Below, piece by piece: positions 12,703 through 64,000 of a stretch of 64,000 nt of DNA. The first letter of the stretch is position 1. Each line of letters starts with the position of its first letter. The notes beneath the pieces are model-generated. The model made no database searches, was not told where the DNA came from, and saw nothing but the letters and a program-made list of their open reading frames with translations. A program made the translations under genes and the position numbers. This DNA comes from Terebella lapidaria (lineage: Eukaryota > Annelida > Polychaeta > Terebellida > Terebellidae): contig OX424560.1 in the NCBI GenBank assembly GCA_949152475.1, positions 41,534,219-41,598,218 of the forward strand, in the 5' to 3' direction.

Positions 12703-15700
12703 CTATGTGTCTCCTTCATCGTCAGTGTTGATTGCAAGTGAGCTGCAGAAAAAAATAGGAACTGAAATGTAGCAGTTTGGAAGCATCCGTGGAAATTTTA
12801 TGTGATTCTGAATTGAACCTGCGTGTTGAATGGGTTTGATACTCGGTGCACTGTTTTAGATACCTATGTTCTGTCGGATCAAGTTGATCGAGTCGACTCT
12901 GTGCTTGTGTCTGAAGCAAGGCTTTCATCTCTGGATATTCTCGCAGTGCCAGGTGAAAGTCCACTTTCTTCAGACGGTATACATCGCATATCTCCAAGGC
13001 AACAACAGATGCTGTCCGTCTTTGATCCAACAGCAGTGCGATTTCTGAATATATGTCGGATGTTATGTGCAGTGAATGTTTTTGTCAAATGTTCAGACTA
13101 GGTGTAGATAGAATAAACTTTACCTCCAAAGTAGCTTCCATCGCTCAGCTGCATTATAACGTTCCCATTTGGTTGCTGAATCTCGACCACACCATGTTCG
13201 ATGAAGTACATGCAGTCTCCTCTCTTTCCTGTCAAATCAAATCACTTGGTACTGATCTATGTAGCTTTGGCACAAAATTCAATTGCATGTACAGTGAAAT
13301 AAACAAGACTGCACCAGCGCTGAGGATGACATCATCGGGGAAGAAAACTTGGAACTCGAGCTTGCATATGACCTCATACAGGAAGTCAGGCGTGGCGTTG
13401 GCAAGGAACGGTACTTTGGAGACCAACGCTCGGCAGTTATGTACCAGAATCTCCTGCAAGACGACAGATACTTTGTGTGACTTCCCTAACACAGAGTAAG
13501 AGATAGTTCAGTTTGCAATGAGTGACTTCAGTAGACTAACATGTTTGAGGGGGTGAGAGAGATGAGCCGGTCCGTCTCGGAGAATGCTTCCTTCATCAAA
13601 GTACTTGCGCTGGAACTTGTGATCGTAGTAGTCCAGGATACGGTGCTGGATAGACAGCGGAACTCGCCGGAACTTCAGGTACTGCTTCACCTCGGATATC
13701 TGGGAGAAGAGGGTTCTGGGCTGAGCTCCATGATTAGTATAGATTATATGTCAAGTGATCCCTTGACGAGGCATGTAAAACAAAAGTGAAATGGAGGATT
13801 TACCAATTGACACCACTCCATACACCAAGTTCCCTACCATCTCCTCGTACTTGCGGCCGGAGAAGTCGATAGTCATGATCAGCATGGACATGTGAGCGAT
13901 GAACAGTGCGTAGAAGGTTGCGCCGAGGGTCATGCTGAACATGACGGCCCATGTGTCTGCGGTGGATGTCGGCGGGGTCAGACCGTAGCCGATACTCAGC
14001 ATGTGTGACATGGCCCTCCACACCGAGCGACTGTAACAACGCCACGTCGTCGCTGTCACTATCTGAAACAAAATTCTCAGCTCCAAATATCTGATGAAAT
14101 TGAGAGATCATGACTGTTTCGTAGAAACAGAGAGTTCTGTCCTGCTATGAAAACATTAGCATTCATTTCAGAAGTTGTTATCATAGCTCCATGTTTCATG
14201 ACAGGTATGCTGATAATTCCGTCATGGCTATGGGGCGAATTCTCAGAACATGTTAACGTTCGAAATGGACTGGACATAATGAGTAAAGATGGAATATCTT
14301 TGGTACAATTGGACGGTACAGTTACTCGAGACTGCTGGCCATTTATTACCGTGACATTGGTGTCGTTGAAGGTGTCGACGATTTTGTCCGTGCGTGTCCA
14401 GGACTCCTCGGGGAAGCCTTCAAGGAAGGCCGCGAAGTACTGCATACAGCCATTCCAATGGCAGAACACAAACATCATCATGACAAGATTCACGATACTC
14501 ACAACCTTGCCCTCGATGTCCAACAACTGCAGCACAGAAACATCCACTCTGAGGTGCACGACAAGCGGGTGTAAATTCTACATAGAACTGTACAAGTAAA
14601 TGTTCAATATTTTGTTACCTCCTCCAGCTTGTGGACGTAGCGCATCAGACGTGCCACTCTCAGAATCTTGAGTAAACTCAATAATTTCGTAAATCTGTGG
14701 AACATAGCAAAAATGTATATGTGTACCTCGGTCGCCATAAATGTATACAAAATCTTCACACATTACTCTTGTGTTTACCTTAAGATCTTCAGAGTGAGAT
14801 ATAAAGATTCAAGTGACTCGTTATTGGACCCTATCAGGTACGTGAACCAGGAATACACGTTGTCGAACGGAAATGATGATGCAAAGTCGAGTAAGAACCA
14901 GGTCTTGGAGTACTGAGCAGCCACCTTCCGCGATTCTATCTCAACCTGGTAAAACACATGGACATATCATCAGGTTGTCAAAGATTGGAGTCATTTGATT
15001 ATGAGAAGGCTCTACATTTATCTTTTGGAGAAAATAATTCCTCATCCAAAGGTGCACAGTACGGAGCCGCTGAAAGGACATGGAAGAAATATTTTTTGAC
15101 ATACGGTTATTGCGTTCCCTCGCAATAATATTGCGTTCCCTCGCAATATTATCGCGTTCCCTCGCAATCCGGATCGCGTTCCCTCGCGATCTTATTGCGT
15201 TCCCTCGCAATCCGGATCGCGTTCCCTCGCGATCTTATTGCGTTCCCTCGCAATCCAGATCGCGTTCCCTCGCAATATTATCGCGTTCCCTCGCGATAAT
15301 ATCGCGTTCCCTCGCATTCCGGATCGCGTTCCCTCGCGATCTTGTAGAATACCTTCTCAGAAGTCATTGGCGTCAGCACAATGCGAGGGAACGCGATCCA
15401 GAATGCGAGGGAACGCGATAATATCGCGAGGGAACGCGATCTGGATTGCAAGGGAACGCGATCCGGATTGCGAGGGAACGTGATCTGGATTGCGAGGGAA
15501 CGCGATCCGGATTGCGAGGGAACGCAATAAGATCGCGAGGGAACGCGATCCGGAATGCGAGGGAACGCGATAATATTGCGAGGGAATGCGATAATATTGC
15601 GAGGGAACGCAATAACAATGTGCTAAAAATATTTCTTCCATGTCCTCTCAGAGGCTCCGTAGCACAGCCCACCAGGACTAAAGCCTGCGCTGATGGGGAG

Positions 15701-20600: not shown

Positions 20601-23600
20601 TTGATCATTTAAAATGCCATAGAATATTACAATTCAATTCATTCAAAATTTTGACCTTCAGCACAATTATGAAATAATTCTGCAAATGGCACAATAACAT
20701 GTCCAAAACCATACAGTCAAATTTGTTTGGTTTATAGCAGTCATTGGCTGTTGTCAAGCAGTGGTCACTAAGCCATGGTTGTTATATTTCTGTGTCAGTG
20801 GGTTCGTGACGGAGAGCTACAGATGCGGCTGCAGGCGTACAAGTACGTGAGCGGAGAGAAAGGCCGCCATCGAGAGCGTGTACTCTCTGGCGAGTACACC
20901 AATGGGGAGAGCAGCGAAGACGCAGGGAAGGTCACAAGGGTCGAGGAGGTGCCGCCAATACAGAAGGGAGTAGATACCACGCTGTTGTGTTCTTCTTGTG
21001 GAAACTGCATCATCCTTACACACAGGTAATGTGAGCCAGATGCCAGTGACCTTCAGACAAAGTTTGCCTTGTTCCTGTCTGAAGGAGGATTAGTGAGTGA
21101 GTGAATAATGTAAATACTCGTGATGCACTTGTACTGCAGGTTTGAGCGAGTGCTGCCACTACCATCCGACAACTGGCAGGAGCTGACTGACTCGTGGTTC
21201 TGTTGTCAGCATAACCAAGGCGACCATGACAAGTTTCCACAGGGTCGGCCGCTGGTGCCGAGGGCTGGAGATTTCCTGTACAGCGACACGTCGGTCGTCG
21301 TGCTGCAGTCCATCTTGAGTCCTGTCGGTGTCAGTGGCGCCGCCCGGGGAGTAGTCAAGTGTGCGCGCTGCTGTAACACACTCGGCCGCAGCACTCGACC
21401 TGGTACGCCAACTCCTGTGGGAGTCAACCGTGATACTTGAAATAACTCAGGAATATCACATATTATGTTGGACGATACTTTGCTTCTGAATTGTTGTTGT
21501 TGGAAATATGATATTATCAATTACAGTAGCACAGTCATCATAACCAGTTCACAGGGTCAATGTATTGGGGTTTTACAGACAACGGAGTCAGTGTGGATGA
21601 GACGGCCATTGTTCTATACAAGTTCCAGGTTCACATCCAGCAGGGTCTCATCAACGGTCCTCTTCCTGGCTACGTGTGCAATAAACGGCTCTGGTCAGTC
21701 AAATGCTACATCTGCGTATCTAAATCCTACACATTATAATACATGTATTGGTAGTTGTCTACTGGGAAGGATGTATTCACTTATGTTCCCTGCGATGGCT
21801 GAGAAATTGTTGTTGGATTGTTGCAGGCTTCAGAGTGTTGAAAGGGGCGTGTCCAATCTTCTACTGAAGTATGCGGACAAACACAACTGTTTCCGTTTTG
21901 TGATAGAAACTAGACGAGAGGCCACTAAAGTAGAACCGTACATGATAGTGAGTGTGATACACCAGGCATATTCCACACGTGCTGCCGCCTTCTGATGTTT
22001 CAAAATGTACATTGTTGATAACTATGATATTCACCTGTACGGTCCTGTCCCTGGATGTCTATAGCTATCATCAGCATGTTATCTCACAGAAGCGCTATGA
22101 ATTCAACCTCTACATACTTAGCACACACTGAGCTGTTGCAGGTTTGGCTGATGGACGCAGACAATGTGATATATCAGAGCTCGGTCGCTGTAGGTCGGGA
22201 CGAACCCGAGATTCTACAACCGCGATCTGTGGCTAAAGTCATTTACAGGGACAGCTTCAGCGACACCAAGTAAGTCTTCTTCCTGGCTCAGTACATAGAA
22301 CCAAACTTCTCAGCACGAAATGTGGCCATATACTAGTGTGCCGGTATGTGTATTGTCCAAATAAGATGTATTGTCTGGTTGCTTTATTCGTGATAAAGGG
22401 GAGGATGTGATAGGTACTGGTCTCGACAGATTAGCACCTTTTATGGTATGACAAACATTGCATGAAGTTATCGATTGAGTTGAGTGTGCAGGCTGTTTTT
22501 AATGGATGTTTTGTGTTGACAGATGTTTTGTGTTTACGGATGTTTTGTGTGCAGGCTGATGGAGGTTCGTGTTGATGGATGTTTTGTGTGTGCAGGCTGA
22601 TGGATGTTTGTGTTGACAGATGTTTTGTGTGTGCAGACTGATGGATGTTTCGTGTTGACATATGTTTTGTGTGTGCAGGCTGATGGATGTTTCGTGTTGA
22701 CAGATGTTTTGTGTGTGCAGGCTGATGGATGTTTGTGTTGACAGATGTTTTGTGTGTGCAGGCTGATGGATGTTTGTGTTGACAGATGTTTTGTGTGTGC
22801 AGGCTGATGGGTGTTTTGTGTGTGCAGGCTGATGGATGTTTGTGTTGACAGATGTTTTATGTGCAGGCTGATGGATGTTGTGTGTGCAGGCTGGTGGATG
22901 TTTTGTGTTGACAGATGTTTTGTGTGTGCAGGCTGATGGATGTTGTGTGTTGACAGATGTTTTGTGTGTGCAGGCTAATGGATGTTTGTGTTGACAAATG
23001 TTTTGTGTGCAGACTGATGGATGTTTGTGTTGACAGATGTTTTGTGTGTGCAGGCTGATGGATGTTTGTGTTGACAGATATTTTGTGTGTACAATCTAAT
23101 GGATGTTGTGTGTTGACAGAAGTTTTGTGTGTGCAGGCTGATGGATGTTTGTGTTGACAGATGTTTTGTGTGTGCAGACTGATGGATTTTCGTGTTGACA
23201 GATGTTTTGTGTGTGCAGGCTGATGGATGTTTGTGTTGACAGATGTTTTATGTGCAGGCTGATGGATGTTTTGTGTTGACAGATGTTTTGTGTGTGCAGG
23301 CTGATGGGTGTTTTGTGTGTGTGCAGGCTGATGGATGTTTGTGTTAACAGATGTTTTATGTGCAGGCTGATGGATGTCTTGTGTTGACAGATGTTTTGTG
23401 TGTGCAGGCTGATGGATGTTTTGTGTTGACAGATGTTTTGTGTGTGCAGGTTAAGGAATTTTTTGTGTTGACAGATGTTTTGTGTGTGCAGGCTGATGGA
23501 TGTTTTGTGTTGACAGATGTTTTGTGTGTGCAGGCTAATGGATGTTTGTGTTGATGGATGTTTTGTGTGTGCAGGGATGGATTTTTGTGTGTGCAGGCTG

Positions 23601-23717
23601 ACGGATGTTTTGTGTGTGCAGGCTGATGGATGTTTGTGTTTATGGATGTTTTGTGTGTGCAGGCTAATTAGGCATCCCGATTGAAAATCGGGAGGCCTTA
23701 TGTTTTTGTCTGTTTTT

Positions 23718-23749
<32 letters not shown>

Positions 23750-24225
23750 TTTTTTTTCTTCCGCCGTTCGGTTTCCGGATCATAACTCTTGAACGCCTTA
23801 ATCTATCTTTCCGAAATTTTCACAGCTCATCCGAAATACTTTGCTCCTAACCCCTATTGTTTTTCGTCGAGACCCGAAATCCAAGATGGCCGCCAGCGGC
23901 CATTTTGGAAAAAAAAATCGGGCGATTCCTGTCAATGTCATAATTTGATTCAGGCAATTTCCAGGGGGAAAAAATTTTTTGGGTGTATTTTTTTTTGGAC
24001 TTAGAATTTTTCCCTCACCTGCCCCCATGCAGATGTAATACTGTGACTGAGCCATGCTACTGTATTCACTGACTGCAGCCTGCATGTCCAGCATGAGGCT
24101 AGGCTCTGCCCTCTCAGCCAGTCAGCCAGTGCAGTATATGAGAGCCCTGCTCAGTAATGCCTGTGATAAGGCAATACCCCCCCCCCCCCTCTCCCTCCCC
24201 CTCGGGAGGCCTTATGTTTTTGTCT

Positions 24226-24257
<32 letters not shown>

Positions 24258-24731
24258 CTTCCGCCGTTCGGTTTCCGGATCATAACTCTTGAACGCCTTA
24301 ATCTATCTTTCTGAAATTTTCACAGCTCATCCGAAATACTTTGCTCCTAACCCCTATTGTTTTTCGTCGAGACCCGAAATCCAAGATGGCCGCCAGCGGC
24401 CAGTTTGGAAAAAAAAATCGGGCGATTCCTGTCAATGTCATAATTTGATTCAGGCAATTTCCAGGGGGAAAAAATTTTTTGGGTGTATTTTTTTTTGGAC
24501 TTAGAATTTTTCCCTCGCCTGCCCCCATGCAGATGTAATACTGTGACTGAGCCATGCTACTGTATTCACTGACTGCAGCCTGCATGTCCAGCATGAGGCT
24601 AGGCTCTGCCCTCTCAGCCAGTCAGCCAGTGCAGTATATGAGAGCCCTGCTCAGTAATGCCTGTGATAAGGCAATACCCCCCCCCCCCCTCTCCCTCCCC
24701 CTCGGGAGGCCTTATGTTTTTGTCTGTTTTT

Positions 24732-24763
<32 letters not shown>

Positions 24764-26165
24764 TTTTTTTTCTTCCGCCATTCGGTTACCGGATCATAAC
24801 TCTTGAACGCCTTAATCTATCTTTCCGAAATTTTCACAGCTCATCCGAAATACTTTGCTCCTAACCCCTATTGTTTTTCGTCGAGACCCGAAATCCAAGA
24901 TGGCCGCCAGCGGCCATTTTGGAAAAAAAAATCGGGCGATTCCTGTCAATGTCATAATTTGATTCAGGCAATTTCCAGGGGGAAAAAATTTTTTGGGTGT
25001 ATTTTTTTTTGGACTTAGAATTTTTCCCTCACCTGCCCCCATGCAGATGTAATACTGTGACTGAGCCATGCTACTGTATTCACTGACTGCAGCCTGCATG
25101 TCCAGCATGAGGCTAGGCTCTGCCCTCTCAGCCAGTGCAGTATATGAGAGCCCTGCTCAGTAATGCCTGTGATAAGGCAATACCCCCCCCCCCCCCTCTC
25201 CCTCCCCCACCTCCACTGTCAGCCAGTCTAATCTGCATATGAATGTAGCAATGTATCAGTGACTTGTATGCACTGCCCCTCTTCCCCCCCCCCCTCTCCT
25301 GTCCCCTCACCCCAGTTTACTATACTAACACCAACAAGTTGGAACAATGCCCTCCTTCCCTTTCTAAAGAAAACAATAGGTGGTTATATAATGATGACCC
25401 AAACTGAAGATAACAGCTTTGAAGGTCTGCCTGGGCCTTGCTTGCCGGTCAATTGTTCATTGTATTCAGTTAAAACAGCACTGTGTTTATCTGGATGAAA
25501 CTACATGCATTGTTTTGTTTTCTAGCTGTATTTCACATGCAGTGACCAAATTATCATTGTTTTACTTAGTCAGAACCCAGAATAATTTCCTTTTTGCTTG
25601 TATTATGAATGTCTGTCATGTCTGTACATTTAATACCTATTGAGATTAAAACAAATATCTGATGGACATTTGTCTAGTGAGCAACTGCTATAATTTGAAC
25701 TCTCACTCCCACCTGTGTTCAATAATCCTGGTATATGTATTATAATAACAGTCAAGTTTCACCATTAGAAAAGAAAAGAAAAATTGGGGGATGCCACAAA
25801 GCCTATAGGCTTTTATGTCTAGTGGATGTTTGTGTTTATGGATGTTTTGTGTGTGCAGGCTAATGGATGTTTGTGTGTGCAAGCTGATGGATGTTTTGTG
25901 TGTGCAGGCTGATGGATGTTTGTGTTTGGATGTTTTGTGTGTGCAGGCTGATGGATGTTTGTGTTTATGGATGTTTTGTGTGTGCAGGCTGGCAGACGAA
26001 TGGAGGAAAGACCTCGGAGCTCACTGTCTGGAGCTGCCGGAGAATCAGTGTGACGAGATTCTTCAGTTACTGATGACTCGCACTGAACTACTGCCAGAGA
26101 GTCTGCGAACCGCCAACAACTTCCTGGTGAAGTCCGCTAGACTCAATTACATCAGAAACCCATAA
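17690..26165 (+). CDS. UBE3D: HECT-like E3 ubiquitin-protein ligase E3D, complete, 8 exons
   Basis: UBE3D (also called UBE2CBP) is a HECT_2-family protein reported to bind the E2 UBE2C/UbcH10. Coding exons: 17690-17796, 20274-20397, 20799-21025, 21140-21402, 21579-21693, 21827-21947, 22142-22269, 25988-26165. The sum is 1,263 bp (420 codons plus stop); phases agree throughout. Family signatures visible are GLRLVPPSCHSMQ, two zinc-binding-like pairs (LLCSSCGNCI and KCARCCNTLG), RVLPLPSDNWQELTDSWFC, FRFVIETRREATKV and a C-terminal LLPESLRTANNFLVK resembling the human ending. Exon 1 was found by its GTGAGT donor, its phase and weak similarity to the human N-terminus, and is the least certain. 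Intron 1 is packed with fold-back repeats. Intron 7 (3.7 kb) is a minisatellite plus a Helitron-like insertion that reach the acceptor of the last exon with no spacer. Confidence 0.88.
17935..18727. mobile_element. Long imperfect palindrome (fold-back element) in UBE3D intron 1
   Basis: The left arm (about 17.94-18.28 kb) is the imperfect reverse complement of the right arm (about 18.36-18.73 kb), centred near 18.32 kb. Matching blocks include GATACCTGCTGAGGACCGCA (from 17980) with its complement near 18.65-18.68 kb, and CTTTCTCGCTTCG (about 18240-18252) with CGAAGCGAGAAAC (from about 18414). Arm divergence is roughly 15-25% by eye, so the element is not very young. No ORF. Confidence 0.7.
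18809..19330. repeat. Adjacent inverted repeats in UBE3D intron 1
   Basis: Two inverted-repeat pairs follow each other. 18809-18851 (starting GAGCCATCCGTCCTAAATTC) pairs with about 18978-19022. About 19050-19180, containing GATATTTCAGTGATAAAGT in inverted form and CTTGGTGGCGCCA, pairs with about 19195-19325. A weaker relative of the second pair continues to about 19.8 kb, with an extra pair GGAGACAAACAACATCGT (19481-19498) and its inverse near 19538-19555. These look like decayed fold-back elements of related families; no coding capacity. Confidence 0.65.
22490..23667 (+). repeat. Minisatellite (~41 bp) carrying a 3' splice-site motif, UBE3D intron 7
   Basis: Units of about 39-42 bp read roughly GATGTTTTGTGTGTGCAG then GCTGATGGATGTTTGTGTT then GACA. 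Every unit contains the acceptor-like TTTTGTGTGTGCAG|GCTG, the same sequence that forms the real acceptor of the last UBE3D exon at 25974-25991. About 28-30 units occur before a Helitron-like element interrupts at 23668; the array resumes at 25823. Units vary by small substitutions and by deletion of the GTTGACAGATG block. Confidence 0.9.
23668..25822 (+). mobile_element. Helitron-like element, copy 3, with triplicated 5' part
   Basis: Same ends as the other two copies (TTAGGCATCCC start, CTAG end), inserted in the minisatellite. Joining the flanks restores a normal repeat unit (GCTAA then TGGATG), which shows directly that no target bases were duplicated or lost beyond the A/T junction. The first ~0.5 kb is present three times in direct orientation (starts near 23668, 24200 and 24713). 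Each join runs from the poly-C/CTCCCTCCCC tract back to TCGGGAGGCC in the 5' hairpin. The element then continues once to the 3' end. Confidence 0.8.
25823..25987 (+). repeat. Continuation of the UBE3D minisatellite up to the last-exon acceptor
   Basis: Four to five more units follow the Helitron-like insertion. The final unit's TGTGTGCAG is the acceptor AG of exon 8 (25988), so the array and the splice site are physically the same sequence. The first exonic bases, GCTGGCAGACGAATGG, resemble the unit's GCTGATGGATG, which suggests the array grew from this junction. Confidence 0.85.
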
Positions 26166-49843: not shown

Positions 49844-52800
49844 ATGTCGAACAGCACGGATAACACACAGAGTACCAATGGAACGGAGTAAGTATATTTT
49901 ATCAGAATACATGCGATTTGATCTCACAGATCTTATTTTTTTCAAATCACATAATATAATATCTATATTGAAATTATCCGGCATTGAAGTCACCGCGATC
50001 CGCTTTACATGTATGCTTAATTGGCCTGAATAGTCCATCTACTATTGTCCCAGAATTTATAATTAAGATCTGCGGCTCAATGCTATACCCGCTTGTAGAG
50101 ACTGCTGGAACACGCTGTCGACCCTCAACACGGACTTTCTCCGAGGTGACGCGAATATCGCGGGTATTATCGGCGTCGCTGTGTTTTACGCCGTGATATT
50201 CGGCGTCGGGATATTTGCGTCGTGGCGCGCCAGACGTCAGCAAGCACGTGACCCCGAGGGTTCACGCAAGGATCACGTGATGCTCGCGGGGCGCTCCATG
50301 GGAACGTTCGTCGGCTTGATGACGCTTACTGGTACGGGCCAAACCAGAGTTCTACACTCTCTAGTGACATGTGGAGTTCTCTGACCGGCCAGATTATATA
50401 ATGCATAGAATCTCTATTTTTTTTATGGAATGCTGTGAATATTGGTAAAATAATGATTGCTATAACTATATGTTCATTTGATTGAAATCACATGCGGGAT
50501 ATTCAACAATTAGATATACGTACTTGAATAAGTATGAATAAAGCCTTATCTATTAAAATATCTTTAATTTTAGAACAACCCTCAGATGAGGGTCGTTTGA
50601 ATTCGACTATTGATAATTTTTTTCAACAGCGACAGCAATCGGGGGCGGGTACATTAACGGCACGGCCGAGACTGTCTTCAACCCTGGCATGGGATTTGTG
50701 TGGTGTCAGGCTCCCGTCTACTACACCCTCGGCATACTCTTTAGTGAGTTAGTACACAATTATATAACCCTCGGCATACTCTCCAGTGAGTTAGTACACA
50801 ATTATATGACCCTCGGCATACTCTCCAGTGAGTTAGTACACAATTATATAACCCTTGGCATACTCTCCAGTGAGTTAGTACACAATTATATAACCCTCGG
50901 CATACTCTCCAGTGAGTTAGTACACAATTATATATCCCTCGGCAAACTCTCCAGTGAGTTAGTACACAATTATATAACCCTCGGCATACCCTCCAGTGAG
51001 TTAGTACACAATTATATATCCCTCGGCAAACTCTCCAGTGAGTTAGTACACAATTATATAACCCTCGGCATTATACCCTCGGCATACTCTTTAGTGAGTT
51101 AGTACACAATTATATAACCCTCGGCATACTCTCCAGTGAGTTAGTACACAATTATATATCCCTCGGCAAACTCTCCAGTGAGTTAGTACACAATTATATA
51201 ACCCTCGGCAAACTCTCCAGTGAGTTAGTACACAATTATATAACCCTCGGCATACTCTCCAGTGAGTTAGTACACAATTATATATCCCTCGGCAAACTCT
51301 CCAGTGAGTTAGTACACAATTATATAACCCTCGGCATACTCTTTAGTGAGTTAGTACACAATTATATAACCCTTGGCATACTCTCCAGTGAGTTAGTACA
51401 CAATTATATAACCCTCGGCATACTCTCCAGTGAGTTAGTACACAATTATATAACCCTCGGCATATTCTTCAGTGAGTTAGTACACAATTATATAACCCTC
51501 GGCATACTCTTTAGTGAGTTAGTACACAATTATATATCCCTCGGCATACTCTCCAGTGAGTTAGTACACAATTATATAACCCTTGGCATACTCTCCAGTG
51601 AGTTAGTACACAATTATATGACCCTCGGCATACTCTCCAGTGAGTTAGTACACAATTATATAACCCTTGGCATACTCTCCAGTGAGTTAGTACACAATTA
51701 TATAACCATCAACATACTCTTTAGTGAGTTAGTACACAATTATATATCCCTCGGCATACTCTCCAGTGAGTTAGTACACAATTATATAACCCTCGGCATA
51801 CTCTTTAGTGAGTTAGTACACAATTATATAACCCTCGGCATACTCTCCAGTGAGTTAGTACACAATTATATAACCCTCGGCATACTCTCCAGTGAGTTAG
51901 TACACAATTATATATCCCTCGGCAAACTCTCCAGTGAGTTAGTACACAATTATATAACCCTCGGCAAACTCTCCAGTGAGTTAGTACACAATTATATAAC
52001 CCTCGGCATATTCTTTAGTGAGTTAGTACACAATTATATAACCCTCGGCATACTCTCCAGTGAGTTAGTACACAATTATATAACCCTTGGCATACTCTTT
52101 AGTGTGTACAGTTATATAAGTTAATACTTGGGATACATAAACAGCACCACGATTTGTGCTATTTGTGTTATCTAAAAAAAATACTTGTAAGTTACAAAGA
52201 TATGAGACATTAAATCTTTGGATCTTTCCATGTGTGTGGCGTTTTGGGTCACGTCGTTTGAATATTTCTTGTCATTTCAGTATAAGAGTCACCTTGTATA
52301 GTCTCAAGACCGCGGGATTTTATCTACGAATCATTCTGTAGTTGGTTTCACGGGGGGGGGGGGGGAGAGGGGTCATGATTATATGGACTGGTGGTAAGGA
52401 CTCTGCCCAAACATTAATGGTAATAATTGGAATATTATGGCGCAAAAACAGCTACAAATTCACAAAGGTACACCGTAGCTATCCATGGCACGTTTATTTC
52501 ATGATATTTACCATTATTTCATGATATTTACCATTATTTCATGATATTTACCATTATGGGACAAATGTCTTCCTTCCATCTCCAAATATTCACTGTAACC
52601 TCAATACAACTTCCTGAGTATAACCCCTGAATATACCCCCCCCCCGGTATGAACAAGGGCGGACCACGGGGGCAGCACGGGGGCAGCACGGGGGCGGCAC
52701 GGGGGCGGCACGGGGACAGCACGGGGGCAGCATGGGGGCAGAAATGTGTCCTTTCGTGAGTCAGATTATCTCATATTGGGATAAATGGCTTTGTTAAAGT

Positions 52801-55800
52801 CAGTGAAATCTTTACAAACAATGGTTGATCTGTACCTGTAGTCAAAGTGGGCGCAATTTGACCACAACCCAGTTAACCCGCTGATATCTAGTTTTCAGGT
52901 TACCCAGCCTATGGTCCCATAATTTATCTTTAAAATTTACAGTCCAATCTTTAGAGGAAGTTTTCTTTTCGAATTTCGTCAAAAATGGCCAACGTTGGAC
53001 TTTGATGGTCATTTTTTTCAGTATCTGGTCAATAGTGTTTCTTTTTGATTTCGCACAAGCAGGACCCTTCAGGTCATAGATGTATATAGATTAAATGCTT
53101 TGAATCGCTCCTGGATAATCTATTCATTATCTTCCTCACTAATTTTACACATTCATGACATTCTGAAATACTTGGTTTGTTTATGAAGATAAAATGCTAA
53201 AATTTGTTTATGAAGATAAAATTACTCGAAATGACCTATATTGGAGGCGTAACGCTTGTATATACAGCTTGGACATGTATTGTGAGCATACAGTAAGACT
53301 AAATACAGTAAGACTAAATACATATTTATTGGGTTATTTTATATAACTACAATGTGGAGTAGTCTAATAGATATGTTTGCAAGGCATGATAAAGTAGGAT
53401 ACTAGTATTTTGGATAATGAGTACTGTTTATTAAACAAGAACACAAGTGAGCAAGCGCATGGGAGTTACCACATACCCCTTCAGGTTTATTCTTTAATTT
53501 ACGATTTTTTATTTAGCCAGCTATAATGCCCTTCTGATGAAAGCTGCCCCTGCCCTTCAAATTTGCTTCCGGCGCCCCTGGGTATGAATACACATCCAAG
53601 CCTAGCATCAAATATATCACTTAGATCCACACATGTTGACTTACAGACGGGCTGTTTTTCGCCAAGCCAATGCGTGATGCGGGTTATACGACCCTCATGG
53701 ATCCTTTCCAGAAGAAGTTTGGACGGATCATGACTGCCTTGCTCTACATCCCGTCCATGCTGGGCAGCACTCTGTGGGCCGGTACCATACTCGCCTCTCT
53801 CGGTATGTAACGGATCATTCAAGTAATATTTTCTCTCTGGACAATGTCACATCTCTGGAGAATATTACATATCTAGTACCTCCCTGTCAGATCACTTTCA
53901 GCGATACGTTGTATAGAGATATCCTCGTTCTGGCGACGAAGTCCGGTCAAAAATGCAAAGTCAGAACTTCAAAATTCGAGGTATACATTTGAATACATAT
54001 TTCCAAGGTACACTACACGTGGTATTATACACGACACAGGCGCCACTCTGAGTGTCATTATCGGCCTAAGCTACCTGTGGGCTGTGGTGATCTCCTCGGG
54101 GCTCGCCATCATCTACACCGTGGTCGGCGGCCTGTACTCGGTCGCTTACACGGACGTCATCCAACTCTTCTGCATCTTCTTCGGGCTTGTGAGTGTCTCA
54201 AATGCGTCACTACTCTATTTGTATGTTCGTCGAGATAGCTATTTAAACATGCCTTGAAAACCCTGATAACGACAGAGAGTTCTAGATCTATGATACATCT
54301 CTCCGTCATTTGAGGAAGACTTTCAGTCGAGTTCCCGTCTGTGTGCCTGATGTAAGTTCAAACGAGTTCTCCAGTACATGTCCCGACCCTATCCCCTGCA
54401 GTGGCTCGCCATCCCTTTCTCCATGATGCACCCGGCCACCACGAGTATTCTGGACACGGCACGCTCCGAGGGCGGCTGGATAGGAGTGAGACCCACGGGG
54501 CCCGCGGTCATGATGTACATAGACTTCGCGCTCCTCCTGATCTTTGGCGGGATGCCCTGGCAGGTACACGGTCCATAGCCTAATAAATCAAAGATGAGGG
54601 AAATAGTGTACTTAAATTACCAAACTATCAAGCCATATCATTTCGAACAGTTTTTTTTTCAGATCTGGAAATCAAATTGTTTCATGTAAATTTATAGATA
54701 GTTGTATTCACCAGCACACACATTTATTCTAGGAGTACTTCCAGCGAGCCCTGGCCGTGAAGACCTCCAGGAGCGCCGTGGTTCTCTCCATCTCCAGCAT
54801 GTCCATGATCTGGTTTTTACATTCTAGGAGTACTTCCAGCGAGCCCTGGCCGTGAAGACCACCAGGAGCGCCGTGGTTCTCTCCATCTCCAGCATGTCCA
54901 TGATCTGGTTTTTACATTCTAGGAGTACTTCCAACGAGCCCTGGCCGTGAAGACCTCCAGGAGCGCCGTGGTTCTCTCCATCTCCAGCATGTCCATGATC
55001 TGGTATTTACATTCTAGGAGTACTTCCAGCGAGCCCTGGCCGTGAAGACCTCCAGGAGCACCGTGGTTCTCTCCATCTCCAGCATGTCCATGATCTGGTT
55101 TTTACATTCTAGGAGTACTTCCAACGAGCCCTGGCCGTGAAGACCTCCAGGAGCGCCGTGGTTCTCTCCATCTCCAGCATGTCCATGATCTGGTATTTAC
55201 ATTCTAGGAGTACTTCCAGCGAGCCCTGGCCGTGAAGACCACCAGGAGTGCTGTGGTTCTCTCCATCTCCAGTATGTCCATGATCTGGTTTTTACATTCT
55301 AGGAGTACTTCCAGCGAAGTATGTGCCCTGGCCGTGAAGACCACCAGGAGCGCCGTGGTTCTCTCCATCTCCAGCATGTGCATGATCTGGTCCATTTTAG
55401 GATTACTTCCAGCGAGCCCTGGCCGTGAAGACCTCCAGGAGCGCTGTGGTTCTCTCCATCTCCAGCATGTCAATGATCTGGTATTTACATTCTAGGGGTA
55501 CTTCCAGCGAGCTCTGGCCGTGAAGACCACCAGGAGCGCCGTGGTTCTCTCCATCTCCAGTATGTTCATGATCTGGTTTTTACATTCTAGGAGTATTTCC
55601 AGCGAGCCCTGGCCGTGAAGACCTCCAGGAGCGCCGTGGTTCTCTCCATCTCCAGCATGTCCATGATCTGGTTTTTACATTCTAGGAGTACTTCCAGCGA
55701 GCCCTGGCCGTGAAGACCTCCAGGAGCGCCGTGGTTCTCTCCATCTCCAGCATGTCCATGATCTGGTTTTTACATTCTAGGAGTATTTCCAGCGAGCTCT

Positions 55801-58800
55801 GGCCGTGAAGACCACCAGGAGCGCCGTGGTTCTCTCCATCTCCAGCATGTCCATGATCTGGTTTTTACATTCTAGGAGTACTTCCAGCGAGCTCTGGCCG
55901 TGAAGACCACCAGGAGTGCCGTGGTTCTCTCCATCTCCAGCATGTCCATGATCTGGTTTTTACATTCTAGGAGTACTTCCAGCGAGCTCTGGCCGTGAAG
56001 ACCTCCAGGAGCGCCGTGGTTCTCTCCATCTCCAGCATGTCCATGATCTGGTTTTTACATTCTAGGAGTACTTCCAGCGAGCCCTGGCCGTGAAGACCTC
56101 CAGGAGCGCCGTGGTTCTCTCCATCTCCAGCATGTCCATGATCTGGTTTTTACATTCTAGGAGTACTTCCAGCGAGCTCTGGCCGTGAAGACCACCAGGA
56201 GCGCCGTGGTTCTCTCCATCTCCAGCATGTCCATGATCTGGTTTTTACATTCTAGGAGTACTTCCAGTGAGCCCTGGCCGTGAAGACCACCAGGAGCGCC
56301 GTGGTTCTCTCCATCTCCAGCATGTCCATGATCTGGTTTTTACATTCTAGGAGTACTTCCAGCGAGCTCTGGCCGTGAAGACCACCAGGAGTGCCGTGGT
56401 TCTCTCCATCTCCAGCATGTCCATGATCTGGTTTTTACATTCTAGGAGTACTTCCAGCGAGCCCTGGCCGTGAAGACCACCAGGAGCGCCGTGGTTCTCT
56501 CCATCTCCAGCATGTCCATGATCTGGTTTTTACATTCTAGGAGTACTTCTAGCCAGCCCTGGCAGTGAAGACCACCAGGAGTGCCGTGGTTCTCTCCATC
56601 TCCAGCATGTCCATGATCTGGTTTTTACATTCTAGGAGTACTTCCAGCGAGCCCTGGCCGTGAAGACCACCAGGAGCGCCGTGGTTCTCTTCATCTCCAG
56701 CATGTCCATGACCTGGTTTTTACATTCTAGGAGTACTTCCAGCGAGCCCTGGCCGTGAGGACCACCAGGAGCGCCGTGGTTCTCTCCATCTCCAGCATGT
56801 CCAAGATCTGGTTTTTACATTCTAGGAGTACTACCAGCGAGCCCTGGCCGTGAAGACCTCCAGGAGCGCCGTGGTTCTCTCCATCTCCAGCATGTCCATG
56901 ATCTGGTTTTTACATTCTAGGAGTATTTCCAGCGAGCCCTGGCCGTGAAGACCTCCAGGAGTGCCGTGGTTCTCTCCATCTCCAGCATGTCCATGATCTG
57001 GTATTTACATTCCAGGAGTACTTTCAGTGAGCCCTGGCCGTGAAGACCACCAGGAGCGCCGTGGTTCTCTCCATCTCCAGCATGTCCATGATCTGGTATT
57101 TACATTCTAGGAGTACTTTCAGTGAGCCCTGGCCGTGAAGACATCCAGGAGCGCCGTGGTTCTCTCCATCTCCAGCATGTCCATGATCTGGTTTTTACAT
57201 TCTAGGAGTACTTCCAGCGAGCCCTGGCCGTGAAGACCACCAGGAGCGCCGTGGTTTTCGCCATCTCCAGCATGTCCATGATCTGGTTTTTACATTTTAG
57301 GAGTATTTCCAGCGAGCCCTGGCCGTGAAGACCTCCAGGGGCGCCGTGGTTCTCTCCATCTCCAGCATGTCCATGATCTGGTTTTTACATTCTAGGAGTA
57401 CTACTAGCGAGCCCTGGCCGGGAAGACCTCCAGGAGCGCCGTGGTTCTCTCCATCTCCAGCATGTCCATGATCTGGTTTTTACATTCAAGGAGTACTTCC
57501 AGCGAGTTCTGGCCGTGAAGACCTCCAAGAGTGCAGTGGTTCTCTCCATCTCCAGCATGTCCATGATCTGGTTTTTACATTCTAGGAGTACTTCCAGCGA
57601 GCTCTGGCCGTGAAGACCACCAGGAGTGCCGTGGTTCTCTCCATCTCCAGCATGTCCATGATCTGGTTTTTACATTCTAGGAGTACTTCCAGCGAGCTCT
57701 GGCCGTGAAGACCACCAGGAGTGCCGTGGTTCTCTCCATCTCCAGCATGTCCATGATCTGGTTTTTACATTCTAGGAGTACTTCCAGGGAGCTCTGGAAG
57801 TGAAGACCACCAGGAGTGCCGTGGTTCTCTCCATCTCCAGCATGTCCATGATCTGGTTTTTACATTATAGGAGTACTTCCAGCGAGCCCTGGCCGTGAAG
57901 ACCTCCAGGAGCGCCGTGATTCTCTCCATCTCCAGCATGTCCATGATCTGGTTTTTACATTCTAGGAGTACTTCTAGCGAGCCCTGGCCGTGAAGACCAC
58001 CAGGAGCGCCGTGGTTCTCTTCATCTCCAGCATGTCCATGACCTGGTTTTTACATTCTAGGAGTACTTCCAGCGAGCCCTGGCCGTGAGGACCACCAGGA
58101 GCGCCGTGGTTCTCTCCATCTCCAGCATGTCCATGATCTGGTTTTTACATTCTAGGAGTACTACCAGCGAGCCCTGGCCGTGAAGACCTCCAGGAGCGCC
58201 GTGGTTCTCTCCATCTCCAGCATGTCCATGATCTGGTTTTTACATTCTAGGAGTACTTCCAGCGAGCCCTTGCCGTGAAGACCTCCAGGAGTGCCGTGGT
58301 TCTCTCCATCTCCAGCATGTCCATGATCTGGTATTTACATTCCAGGAGTACTTTCAGTGAGCCCTGGCCGTGAAGACCACCAGGAGCGCCGTGGTTCTCT
58401 CCATCTCCAGCATGTCCATGATCTGGTATTTACATTCTAGGAGTACTTTCAGTGAGCCCTGGCCGTGAAGACATCCAGGAGCGCCGTGGTTCTCTCCATC
58501 TCCAGCATGTCCATGATCTGGTTTTTACATTCTAGGAGTACTTCCAGCGAGCCCTGGCCGTGAAGACCTCCAGGAGCGCCGTGGTTTTCGCCATCTCCAG
58601 CATGTCCATGATCTGGTTTTTACATTTTAGGAGTATTTCCAGCGAGCCCTGGCCGTGAAGACCTCCAGGGGCGCCGTGGTTCTCTCCATCTCCAGCATGT
58701 CCATGATCTGGTTTTTACATTCTAGGAGTACTTCTAGCGAGCCCTGGCCGTGAAGACCTCCAGGAGCGCCGTGGTTCTCTCCATCTCCAGCATGTCCATG

Positions 58801-61800
58801 ATCTGGTTTTTACATTCAAGGAGTACTTCCAGCGAGCTCTGGCCGTGAAGACCTCCAAGAGTGCCGTGGTTCTCTCCATCTCCAGCATGTCCATGATCTG
58901 GTTTTTACATTCTAGGAGTACTTCCAGCGAGCTCTGGCCGTGAAGACCACCAGGAGTGCTGTGGTTCTCTCCATCTCCAGCATGTCCATGATCTGGTTTT
59001 TACATTCTAGGAGTACTTCCAGCGAGCTCTGGCCGTGAAGACCACCAGGAGTGCCGTGGTTCTCTCCATCTCCAGCATGTCCATGATCTGGTTTTTACAT
59101 TCTAGGAGTACTTCCAGCGAGCTCTGGAAGTGAAGACCACCAGGAGTGCCGTGGTTCTCTCCATCTCCAGCATGTCCATGATCTGGTTTTTACATTATAG
59201 GAGTACTTCCAGCGAGCCCTGGCCGTGAAGACCTCCAGGAGCGCCGTGATTCTCTCCATCTCCAGCATGTCCATGATCTGGTTTTTACATTCTAGGAGTA
59301 CTTCTAGCGAGCCCTGGCCGTGAAGACCTCCAGGAGCGCCGTGGTTCTCTCCATCTCCAGCATGTCCATGATCTGGTTTTTACATTCAAGAAGTACTTCC
59401 AGCGAGCTCTGGCCGTGAAGACCACCAGGAGTGCCGTGGTTCTCTCCATCTCCAGCATGTCCATGATCTGGTTTTTACATTCTAGGAGTACTTCCAGCGA
59501 GCTCTGGCCGTGAAGACCACCAGGAGCGCCGTGGTTCTCTCCATCTCCAGGATGTCCATGATCTGGTTTTTACATTCTAGGAGTACTTCCAGCGAGCCCT
59601 GGCCGTGAAGACCTCCAGGAGCGCCGTGGTTCTCTCCATCTCCAGCATGTCCATGATCTGGTTTTTACATTCTAGGAGTACTTTCAGCGAGCCCTGGCCG
59701 TGAAGACCTTCAGGAGCGCCGCGGTTCTCTCCATCTCCAGCATGTCCATGATCTGGTTTTTACATTCTAGGACTACTTTCAGCGAGCCCTGGCCGTGAGG
59801 ACCACCAGGAGCGCCGTGGTTCTCTCCATCTCCAGCATGTCCATGATCTGGTTTTTACATTCTAGAAGTACTTCTAGCGAGCCCTGACCGTGAAGACCTC
59901 CAGGAGCGCCGTGGTTCTCTCCATCTCCAGCATGTCCATGATCTGGTTTCTACATTCTAGGAGAACTTCTAGCAAGCCCTGGCCGTGAAGACCACCAGGA
60001 GTGCCGTGGTTCTCTCCATCTCCAGCATGTCCATGATCTGGTTTTTACATTCTAGGAGTACTTCCAGCGAGCCCTGGCCGTGAAGACCACCAGGAGTGCC
60101 GTGGTTCTCTCCATCTCCAGCATGTCCACGATCTGGTTTTTACATTCTAGGAGTACTTCCAGCGAGCCCGGGCCGTGAAGACCACCAGGAGCGCCGTGGT
60201 TCTCTCCATCTCCAGCATGTCCATGATCTGGTTTTTACATTCTAGGAGTACTTCCAGCGAGCCCTGGCCGTGAAGACCACGAGGAGTGCCGTGGTTCTCT
60301 CCATCTTCAGCATGTCCACAATCTGGTTTTTACATTCTAGGAGTACTTCCAGCGAGCTCTGGCCGTGAAGACCACCAGGAGTGCCGTGGTTCTCTCCATC
60401 TCCAGCATGTCCATGATCTGGTTTTTACATTCTAGGAGTACTTCCAGCGAGCCCTGGCCGTGAAGACCTCCAGGATCGCCGTGGTTCTCTCCATCTCCAG
60501 CATGTCCATGATCTGGTTTTTACATTCTAGGAGTATTTCCAGCGAGCTCTGGCCGTGAAGACCACCAGGAGCGCTGTGGTTCTCTCCATCTCCAGCATGT
60601 CCATGATTTGGTTTTTACATTCTAGGAATATTTCCAGCGAATTCTGGCCGTGGAGACCACCAGGAGCGCCGTGGCTCTCTTCATCTCCAGCATGTCCATG
60701 ATCTGGTTTTTACATTCTAGGAGTACTTCCAGCGAGCCCTGGCCGTGAGGACCACCAGGAGCGCCGTGGTTCTCTCCATCTCCAGCATGTCCATGATCTG
60801 GTTTTTACATTCTAGGAGTACTTCCAGTGAGCCCTGGCCGTAAAGACCACCAGGAGCGCCGTGGTTCTCTCCATCTCCAGCATGTCCATGATCTGGTTTT
60901 TACATTCTAGGAGTACTACCAGCGAGCCCTGGCCGTGAAGACCACCAGGAGTGCCGTGGTTCTCTCCATCTCCAGCATGTCCATGATATGGTTTTTACAT
61001 TCTAGGAGTACTTCCAGCGAGCCCTGGCCATGAAGACCTCCAGGAGCCCCGTGGTTCTCTCCATCTCCAGCATGTCCATGATCTGGTTTTTACATTCTAG
61101 GAGTACTTTCAGTGAGCCCTGGCCGTGAAGACCTCCAGGAGCACCGTGGTTCTCTCCATCTCCAGCATGTCCATGATCTGGTTTTTACATTCTAGGAGTA
61201 CTTCGAGCGAGCCCTGGCCGTGAAGACCACCAGGAGCGCCGTGGTTCTCTCCATCTCCAGCATGTCCATGATCTGGTTTTTACATTCTAGGAGTACTTTC
61301 AGTGAGCCCTGGCCGTGAAGACCTCCAGGAGCACCGTGGTTCTCTCCATCTCCAGCATGTCCATGATCTGGTTTTTACATTCTAGGAGTACTTCCAGCGA
61401 GCCCTGGCCGTGAAGACCTCCAGGAGCGCCGTGGTTCTCTCCATCTCCAGCATGTCCATGATCTGGTTTTTACATTCTAGGAGTACTTCCAGCGAGCCCT
61501 GGCCGTGAAGACCTCCAGGAGCGCCGTGGTTCTCTCCATCTCCAGCATATCCATGATCTGGTTTTTACATTCTAGGAGTACTTTCAGCGAGCCCTGGCCG
61601 TGAAGACCTCCAGGAGCGCCGTGGTTCTCTCCATCTCCAGCATGTCCATGATCTGGTTTTTACATTCTAGGAGTACTTTCAGCGAGCCCTGGCCGTGAGG
61701 ACCACCAGGAGCGCCGTGGTTCTCTCCATCTCCAGCATGTCCATGATCTGGTTTTTACATTCTAGGAGTACTTCTAGCGAGCCCTGACCGTGAAGACCTC

Positions 61801-64000
61801 CAGGAGCGCCGTGGTTCTCTCCATCTCCAGCATGTCCATGATCTGGTTTTTACATTCTAGGAGAACTTCTAGCGAGCCCTGGCTGTGAAGACCACCAGGA
61901 GTGCCGTGGTTCTCTCCATCTCCAGCATGTCCATGATCTGGTTTTTATATTCTAGGAGTACTTCCAGCGAGCCCTGGCCGTGGAGACCACCAGGAGTGCC
62001 GTGGTTCTCTCCATCTCCAGCATGTCCACGATCTGGTTTTTACATTCTAGGAGTACTTCCAGCGAGCCCGGGCCGTGAAGACCACCAAGAGCGCCGTGGT
62101 TCTCTCCATTTCCAGCATGTCCATGATCTGGTTTTTACATTCTAGGAGTACTTCCAGCGAGCCCTGGCCGTGAAGACCACCAGGAGTGCCGTGGTTCTCT
62201 CCATCTCCAGCATGTCCACGATCTGGTTTTTACATTCTAGGAGTACTTCCAGCGAGCCCGGGCCGTAAAGACCACCAGGAGCGCCGTGGTTCTCTCCATC
62301 TCCAGCATGTCCATGATCTGGTTTTTACATTCTAGGAGTACTTCCATCGAGCCCTGGCCGTGAAGACCACCAGGAGCGCCGTGGTTCTCTCCATCTCCAG
62401 CATGTCCCTGATATGGTTTTTACATTCTAGGAGTACTTCCAGCTAGCCCTGGCCGTGAAGACCACCAGGAGCGCCGTGGTTCTCTCCATCTCCAGCATGT
62501 CCATGATATGGTTTTTACATTCTAGGAGTACTTCCAGCGAGCCCTGGCCGTGAAGACCACCAGGAGCGCCGTGGTTCTCTCCATCTCCAGCATGTCCATG
62601 ATCTGGATTTTACATTCTAGGAGTACTTCCAGCGAGCCCTGGCCGTGAAGACCTCCAGGAGCGCCGTGGTTCTCTCCATCTCCAGCATGTCCATGATCTG
62701 GTTTTTACATTCTAGGAGTACTTCCAGCGAGCCCTGGCCGTGAAGACCTCCAGGAGTGCCGTGGTTCTCTCCATCTCCAGCATGTCCATGATCTGGTTTT
62801 TACATTCTAGGAGTACTTCCAGCGAGCCCTGGCCGTGAAGACCACCAGGAGCGCCGTGGTTTTCTCCATCTCCAGCATGTCCGTGATCTGGTTTTTACAT
62901 TCTTGGAGTACTTCCAGCGAGCCCTGGCCGTGAAGACCACCAGGAGCGCCGTTGTTTTCTCCATCTCCAGCATGTCCATGATCTGGTTTTTACATTCTTG
63001 GAGTACTTCCAGCGAGCCCTGGCCGTGAAAACCTCCAGGAGCGCCGTGGTTCTCTCCATCTCCAGCATGTCCATGATCTGGTTTTTACATTCTAGGAGTA
63101 CTTCCATCGAGCCCTGGCCGTGAAGACCACCAGGAGCGCCGTGGTTCTCTCCATCTCCAGCATGTCCCTGATATGGTTTTTACATTCTAGGAGTACTTCC
63201 AGCTAGCCCTGGCCGTGAAGACCACCAGGAGCGCCGTGGTTCTCTCCATCTCCAGCATGTCCATGATATGGTTTTTACATTCTAGGAGTACTTCCAGCGA
63301 GCCCTGGCCGTGAAGACCACCAGGAGCGCCGTGGTTCTCTCCATCTCCAGCATGTCCATGATCTGGTTTTTACATTGTAGGAGTACTTCCAGCGAGCCCT
63401 GGCCGTGAAGACCACCAGGAGCGCCGTGGTTCTCTCCATCTCCAGCATGTCCATGATCTGGTTTTTACATTCTATGAGTACTTCCAGCGAGCCCTGGCCG
63501 TGAAGACCACCAGGAGCGCCGTGGTTCTCTCCATCTCCAGCATGTCCATGATCTGGTTTTTACATTGTAGGAGTACTTCCAGCGAGCCCTGGCCGTGAAG
63601 ACCACCAGGAGCGCCGTGGTTCTCTCCATCTCCAGCATGTCCATGATCTGGTTTTTACATTGTAGGAGTACTTTCAGCGAGCCCTGGCCGTGAAGACCTC
63701 CAGGATCGCCGTGGTTCTCTCCATCTCCAGCATGTCCATGATCTGGTTTTTACATTCTAGGAGTATTTCCAGCGAGCTCTGGCCGTGAAGACCACCAGGA
63801 GCGCTGTGGTTCTCTCCATCTCCAGCATGTCCATGATCTGGTTTTTACATTCTAGGAATATTTCCAGCGAATTCTGGGCGTGGAGACCACCAGGAGCGCC
63901 GTGGCTCTCTTCATCTCCAGCATGTCCATGATCTGGTTTTTACATTCTAGGAGTACTTCCAGCGAGCCCTGGCCGTGAGGACCACCAGGAGCGCCGTGGT
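49844..64000 (+). CDS. High-affinity choline transporter-like (SLC5A7/CHT1), 5' part
   Basis: Sodium-coupled choline uptake transporter of the SLC5 family. Exons 1-6: 49844-49887, 50099-50331, 50630-50743, 53647-53802, 54040-54188, 54402-54563 (858 bp, 286 codons, phases consistent). Exon 7 begins GAGTACTTCCAGCG ([19 protein letters not shown]), first at 54733, but is copied in a tandem array to the window end, so its functional copy and all later exons lie outside. The N-terminus carries Asn-rich glycosylation-like sites ([15 protein letters not shown]), then the first membrane segment ([20 protein letters not shown]). CHT1 hallmarks are [53 protein letters not shown] and GGMPWQEYFQRAL. Exon 3's donor lies in a 42-bp array and exon 7's acceptor in a 95-bp array. 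SLC5A7 orthology versus a paralogue is not settled. Confidence 0.88.
50728..52103 (+). repeat. 42-bp tandem array duplicating the exon 3 splice donor
   Basis: Each unit reads CCCTCGGCATACTCTCCA|GTGAGT then TAGTACACAATTATATAA. The first unit is the end of exon 3 plus its donor (GTGAGT at 50744). Donors then recur every 42 bp, with one unit lengthened by a 14-bp internal repeat near 51069, to a final, degenerate GTGTGT at 52102: 32 intact donors plus one decayed. Unit differences are few (TCC/TTT, ATA/AAA, AAC/ATC). The long frames through the array ([14 protein letters not shown] repeated) exist because 42 is divisible by 3. Confidence 0.95.
52104..53646 (+). other. Rest of transporter intron 3
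   Basis: No coding exon. It holds a poly-G run (about 52351), three direct copies of a ~20-bp unit with ATGATATTTACCATTA (about 52500-52556), a short GGGGGCAGCAC minisatellite (about 52667-52740), and about 52894-53060, a fragment of the AGGTTACC transposon family (CAGGTTACCCAGCC; CAAAAATGGCCAACG). A 20-bp duplication (CAGTAAGACTAAATA) lies near 53290. Confidence 0.6.
54731..64000 (+). repeat. 95-bp tandem array duplicating the exon 7 splice acceptor, at least 97 units
   Basis: The unit is the end of intron 6 (TTTTTACATTCTAG) plus the first ~80 bp of exon 7 (GAGTACTTCCAGCGAGCCCT to ATGATCTGG). Unit starts at 54731, 54826 and 54921 give a 95-bp period; the last start is at 63949, which is 97 periods plus 3 bp, and the array is cut by the window edge. 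One unit near 55.3 kb carries extra bases and its neighbour a small deletion. Most units keep an intact TAG acceptor; exceptions include AAG (for example about 57488). Because 95 is not divisible by 3, reading from any unit into the next meets a TGA in the GCCGTGA of the next copy. Blocks of several units are themselves repeated (14, 8, 20 and 34 units apart). Confidence 0.97.

Follow-up and report, generated by a model that had tools for sequence, protein, structure and literature searches.

Tandem arrays of splice junctions in a choline-transporter-like gene of the annelid Terebella lapidaria

A choline-transporter-like gene of Terebella lapidaria carries two minisatellites, by which we mean local tandem arrays with units of roughly 10 to 100 bp, that repeat the gene's own splice junctions. 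One repeats the acceptor and the start of exon 7 and the other repeats the end of exon 3 with its donor, and both consist of near-identical head-to-tail units with no spacer (95 bp × 149 and 42 bp × ~32). We consider it likely that both are neutral, locus-specific minisatellites that were begun by tandem duplication across splice junctions, with the copy joined to its exon staying the working site and the other copies tolerated via exon definition.

Results

The analyzed window is a 64,000-nucleotide stretch (C6:41534219-41598218) of an assembly of 761.6 Mb in 438 contigs. In the window alone, TRF reported a 95-bp unit repeated 97.6 times with 95% matches, running to the window end. Once the adjoining 80 kb of contig sequence was added, the array was found to end ~4.9 kb beyond the window, giving a total of 149 copies, 148 of 95 bp and 1 of 98 bp. 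The unit (ATTCTAG/GAGTACTTCC...) comprises the end of the intron and ~86 bases of exon 7, and the last copy continues as coding sequence past its end (ATGATCTGGTTTTT/CTCCATCCC), with a donor and exons 8 and 9 coming next. The original prediction that a splice acceptor and exon start had been amplified inside a transporter gene is supported by the TRF array and by the protein matches given below, and the 149 copies are contiguous, head to tail, and without intervening DNA, as it had described. Its estimate of about 100 copies (at least 97) holds for the part inside the window but not for the whole array, whose end lies outside.

By BLAST, the 95-bp unit had no match elsewhere in 344 kb (the window, the 80 kb beyond it, and two 100-kb blocks), and tandem exon 7 matches occurred at the array locus only, among the 78 of 223 genome candidates that were scored. 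An assembly artefact, in the form of an assembly loop, is unlikely because the 148 regular copies include 90 different sequences. The gap between exons 6 and 8 is 14.8 kb at the array locus, compared with 0.29 to 1.14 kb in seven of the eight CHT-like sets in which an exon 6 match could be paired, by our own pairing, with an exon 8 match, and 4.3 kb in the remaining set.

The gene also contains another array, overlooked in the original prediction, that spans the exon 3 donor (Table 1). Its unit joins 19 bases from the end of exon 3 to 23 from the start of intron 3. Both arrays thus carry splice sites within their units, in the manner of the IFI6 minisatellite considered below: the exon 3 donor A/GTGAGT is present 32 times, and the acceptor AG recurs across the regular exon 7 units.

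Table 1. Exons and tandem arrays in the window, the adjoining contig, and the sampled blocks. Extended positions continue the window numbering into the next 80 kb; b1 and b2 are the two 100-kb blocks.
Feature	Position	Strand	Description
Acceptor array, HECT_2-domain gene	22485..25987 (census entry, extended 22522)	+	~41-bp units, TGTGTGCAG/GCT-type acceptors, 34 TGTGCAG copies
Exon 1, choline-transporter-like gene	49844-49887	+	Joined frame; CHT1 match
Exon 2, choline-transporter-like gene	50099-50331	+	Joined frame; CHT1 match
Exon 3, choline-transporter-like gene	50630-50743	+	Joined frame; ends at first donor of 42-bp array
Donor array, exon 3/intron 3	50725..52098 (census entry, extended 50725)	+	42-bp unit, 32 intact AGTGAGTTAG donors; first joined to exon 3
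Exon 4, choline-transporter-like gene	53647-53802	+	Joined frame; Pfam SSF
Exon 5, choline-transporter-like gene	54040-54188	+	Joined frame; Pfam SSF
Exon 6, choline-transporter-like gene	54402-54563	+	Joined frame; Pfam SSF
Acceptor array, exon 7	54726..64000 in window, on to extended 68881 (census entry, extended 54726)	+	TRF; 149 copies, last adjoins rest of exon 7
Exon 7, choline-transporter-like gene	Extended 68796-68925, beyond window	+	Joined frame; starts in last array copy
Exon 8, choline-transporter-like gene	Extended 69423-69673, beyond window	+	Joined frame
Exon 9, choline-transporter-like gene	Extended 69834-70430, beyond window	+	Joined frame
Census array	Extended 73668-74354		20-bp motif; by eye, second half is reverse complement of first
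Census array	Extended 113619-115614		43 bp × 48, intronic, 8 bases after donor of minus-strand citrate-synthase-domain gene
Donor array, N-terminal exon of Kv-beta-like gene	C1:10012995-10015251 (census entry, b1 12995)		~40-bp units, ~56 copies
Census array	b2 43620		No junction on visual inspection
Census array	C2:20063219-20064587 (census entry, b2 63219)		52 bp × 27, in MATH-domain gene intron between two exons, most of intron filled

When the first exon 3 donor and the last exon 7 acceptor are used, nine exons separated by GT/AG introns join into one frame of 611 codons and a stop. The predicted product is a choline-transporter-like protein (CHT1/SLC5A7) of 611 aa: a 559-aa part of it, used as query, matched the high-affinity choline transporter CHT1 with an E value of 2.9e-138 over query residues 34 to 552, and Pfam placed an SSF domain (PF00474; E value, 5.3e-29) at residues 77 to 483. 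To judge from this frame, the gene can still encode the full protein. The original prediction had named an array lying in a dead gene copy as an outcome that would count against it; instead, exon 7 is completed after the array, exons 8 and 9 follow in frame, and the host gene does not look dead.

A rival explanation is that the host gene is a decaying extra copy, in which the arrays grew since its splicing no longer matters. Other CHT-like matches lie on C1, C2, C8, C11, and C14 (37 to 74% identity per exon match), and the host gene may be dispensable because they exist; judging by these matches, the CHT-like family is expanded in the T. lapidaria genome. We nevertheless consider decay quite unlikely, given the full-length open frame with its GT/AG introns, the presence of similar arrays in two other genes whose coding sequence is conserved, and the retention in the exon-joined copy of a residue that is common to CHT1 and lost in the decoys. 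This residue is a Phe in the last copy, like CHT1 at the aligned place, and a Ser in the decoy consensus. Several of the CHT-like transporter matches are clustered at C8:1514120-1634363.

The consequences of using each acceptor were read out for 133 of the 149 copies, those with an acceptor identical to one of three motifs; the other 16 were left out. Read-through met a stop in 132 of the 133, at 40 codons into exon 7 in 101 copies and between 3 and 95 codons in the other 31, and the last copy was the sole one to read on to the normal stop. This agrees with the original prediction that earlier copies shift the frame and terminate and that a full transporter needs the last copy.

Local site strength does not single out the exon-joined copies in either array, as scored with very small matrices (12 neighboring introns for acceptors and 13 neighboring donors). 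The last acceptor copy is equaled or outscored by 125 of the 147 acceptor decoys. For the first donor the score is 6.6, compared with 7.8 for 24 decoys, 6.6 for 6, and 4.6 for 1, so that 30 of 31 donor decoys equal or exceed it. We therefore rejected the idea that the used copy is chosen for its local strength as an acceptor or donor, because decoys mostly match or beat the exon-joined site. The expectation that each copy is a plausible 3' splice site holds weakly: the acceptor score falls inside the leave-one-out range of the 12 real neighboring sites, but in this rough matrix of 12 neighboring introns only, the exon-joined acceptor reaches just the 49th or 61st percentile of all AGs, depending on the pseudocount.

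Variation among the copies indicates how the decoys have evolved. Over 84 exon-derived bases in 147 regular decoys, we counted 82 distinct variants, of which 57 change an amino acid, 23 are silent, and 2 create a stop, compared with 58.3, 20.7, and 3.0, respectively, expected under neutrality given the observed balance of transitions and transversions. Of the 148 regular copies, 141 have an intact acceptor AG, and 140 were predicted from the mean of 2.60 differences per copy. The decoys drift like neutral DNA, and their AG is conserved no better than other sites. The last copy is at least 4 bases away from every other copy, which is true of 2 of the 148, and several copies share the exact sequence of the first. 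Blocks of copies have also been duplicated within the array: runs of ten copies recur with 0.3 differences per copy at a lag of 38 and 0.7 at a lag of 39, compared with ~4 overall, which points to block duplication or unequal exchange.

These data bear on the proposal, made in the original prediction, that the decoy acceptors act as a dosage brake through nonsense-mediated decay (NMD), whereby some transcripts would use upstream copies and stop ~40 codons into exon 7, and copy number would tune the transporter dose. The nearly universal stop on read-through and the decoy acceptors' scores, as good as that of the last one, are what such a brake would call for. However, the neutral variation of the decoys and the retention of their AG no better than other sites lend the proposal no support beyond frame arithmetic, and we regard it as very unlikely. 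Occasional low-level use of decoys followed by NMD is possible.

Under another reading, which concerns the donor array above all, the arrays would create protein variety, with alternative exon 3 donors inserting blocks of 14 residues; the IFI6 donor minisatellite is a small-scale example. Donors 1 to 8 of the 32 are indeed in frame, and each would add 14 residues (42 bases, or 14 codons). After a 56-base step, however, donors 9 to 32 are out of frame and reach a stop, the added blocks would sit in a conserved transporter domain, and no such variety is possible for the acceptor array, leaving this explanation highly improbable.

Junction-spanning arrays are also present in other genes. The window contains an acceptor array in a gene with a HECT_2 domain (E value, 6.3e-44), which we take to be UBE3D-like. 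The last copy of this array provides the acceptor for the exon that begins at 25988, and the array is broken by a dispersed ~500-bp element in three tandem copies (23701-25213). On C1, the donor of an N-terminal exon of a Kv-beta-like gene (TACAG/GTAACC) lies inside an array with 44 exact CAGGTAACC in ~56 units. The peptide across this junction matches Kv beta-2 (12 of the 12 PDB sequences listed; best E value, 0.0024), as do the exons downstream of the array (E value, 1.2e-51). Also in the window, at 15107-15610, are two neighboring arrays that are built of GCGTTCCCTCGCAATC-type units and oppositely oriented.

We took a census of local arrays in 344 kb (the window, the 80 kb beyond it, and the two 100-kb blocks), dropping from the 114 initial rows those with units of <20 bp, with <10 copies, or with a BLAST match elsewhere in the 344 kb. 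The two rows of the presumably UBE3D-like array were kept as one despite one match each, which we assigned to the remaining portion of the interrupted array. Eight local arrays were left (Table 1), and four of them hold a junction, three of three in the window and one of five outside. With an assumed 5% chance per array, which is our own estimate, P is 4e-4 for four of eight, a value biased by the picking of the window for such an array, and 0.23 for the one of five outside. Three arrays in one window may be more than chance duplication and go beyond a plain neutral account.

Two of the arrays without a junction lie in introns of genes that we assume to be TRIM37-like (the MATH-domain gene) and ATP-citrate-lyase-like (the citrate-synthase-domain gene). 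The flanks of the array with the 20-bp motif are also inverted, as in a foldback-like element. A further 20 kb, inspected by eye without the BLAST filter, added no qualifying array.

Genome-wide, a donor pattern of three tandem MAGGTRAGT with gaps of 23 to 53 gave 407 matches, compared with 135 for a control in which the pattern was read backwards. Places were compared over C1, C2, and C3 to 25.68 Mb, the stretch common to all match lists, and numbered 8 for the donor (two neighboring C3 clusters being counted as one), 3 for the backward control, and 0 for a second, rearranged 9-mer (MAGTGRAGT). The donor excess in places, which are pattern matches and hence candidate junctions, has a pooled P of 0.009 and a P of 0.11 against the first control alone. 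With gaps of 11 to 41, there were 204 donor and 148 control matches, and up to C3:37.84 Mb, the donor had 7 places and the control none, among the matches listed.

Two other counts point away from a donor bias. When the second control was read backwards, its matches numbered 551, above the 407 of the donor (matches, not places), and in 343 kb, the donor 9-mer was not commoner than the first control (9 versus 14). No acceptor excess was seen genome-wide (65 matches versus 174 for the control pattern, whose listed matches include a recurring dispersed element). A genome-wide lean of arrays toward donor sequence is thus suggestive but unproven.

Discussion

Under our preferred explanation of neutral minisatellites born at splice junctions, a tandem duplication spanning a junction would found each array, which would then grow by unequal exchange or block duplication. 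The working splice site would be the copy contiguous with the remaining exon sequence, which is the last in the acceptor array and the first in the donor array. It would remain so because the spliceosome recognizes an exon by pairing the sites at its two ends, and with that copy the exon keeps its normal length. In exon 7 the acceptor closest to the donor would win, in exon 3 the donor closest to the acceptor, and the other copies would be, in effect, intron. It is from the DNA that we infer both which copy cells splice and exon definition as the cause.

In a gene with a surviving reading frame, 148 near-identical acceptors precede the one joined to the exon. Rules that choose the first AG after the branch point or the strongest local site would miss the last copy, whereas exon definition would pick it. 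Because exon definition alone among these predicts the last copy, the locus is a natural test of splice-site choice.

A broader reading is that minisatellites in this genome arise preferentially at splice junctions, or at any rate at donors, such that many genes would have tens to hundreds of tandem decoy sites at exon edges. We hold this to be possible but doubtful. If it is true, the genome would provide a natural, genome-wide test of how exon definition turns away decoys that match the true site in strength. Should the excess of donor arrays hold genome-wide, splice junctions would be duplication-prone DNA and a route of intron growth.

Turri et al. are said to have reported in 1995 that a minisatellite in human IFI6 (6-16/G1P3) gives multiple splice donor sites. 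The IFI6 donor-site minisatellite is also cited in a passage of PMC4526556, and donor-bearing minisatellites are therefore already known; the structure described here is real and striking. Like the IFI6 minisatellite, the 42-bp array has a splice donor within its unit, at the border of an exon; unlike IFI6, the same gene also has a 149-copy acceptor array, and the arrays are known here from DNA alone. We recognized no acceptor-site arrays in the open-licence papers searched.

Three other systems share features with these arrays. The polyubiquitin gene UBC has tandem dual-specific splice sites and, as here, splice motifs in a tandem array; according to the passage concerned, however, each AGGT there is both donor and acceptor at ubiquitin-unit borders within coding sequence (PMC10809524), whereas by sequence each array in T. 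lapidaria contains either donors or acceptors and flanks a single exon on its intron side. In green algae, tandem repeats are denser near intron-exon junctions than elsewhere in introns, in a passage that is silent on whether the repeat units contain splice sites (PMC3887541). In Caenorhabditis elegans, the intronic minisatellite CeRep25B lies near alternative exons and has been proposed to influence splicing (PMC4039745). It resembles the arrays described here as a minisatellite in introns beside exons, but as that passage presents it, CeRep25B is a dispersed, nearly palindromic family with a proposed regulatory role (PMC4039745), whereas the units in T. lapidaria are the gene's own junctions.
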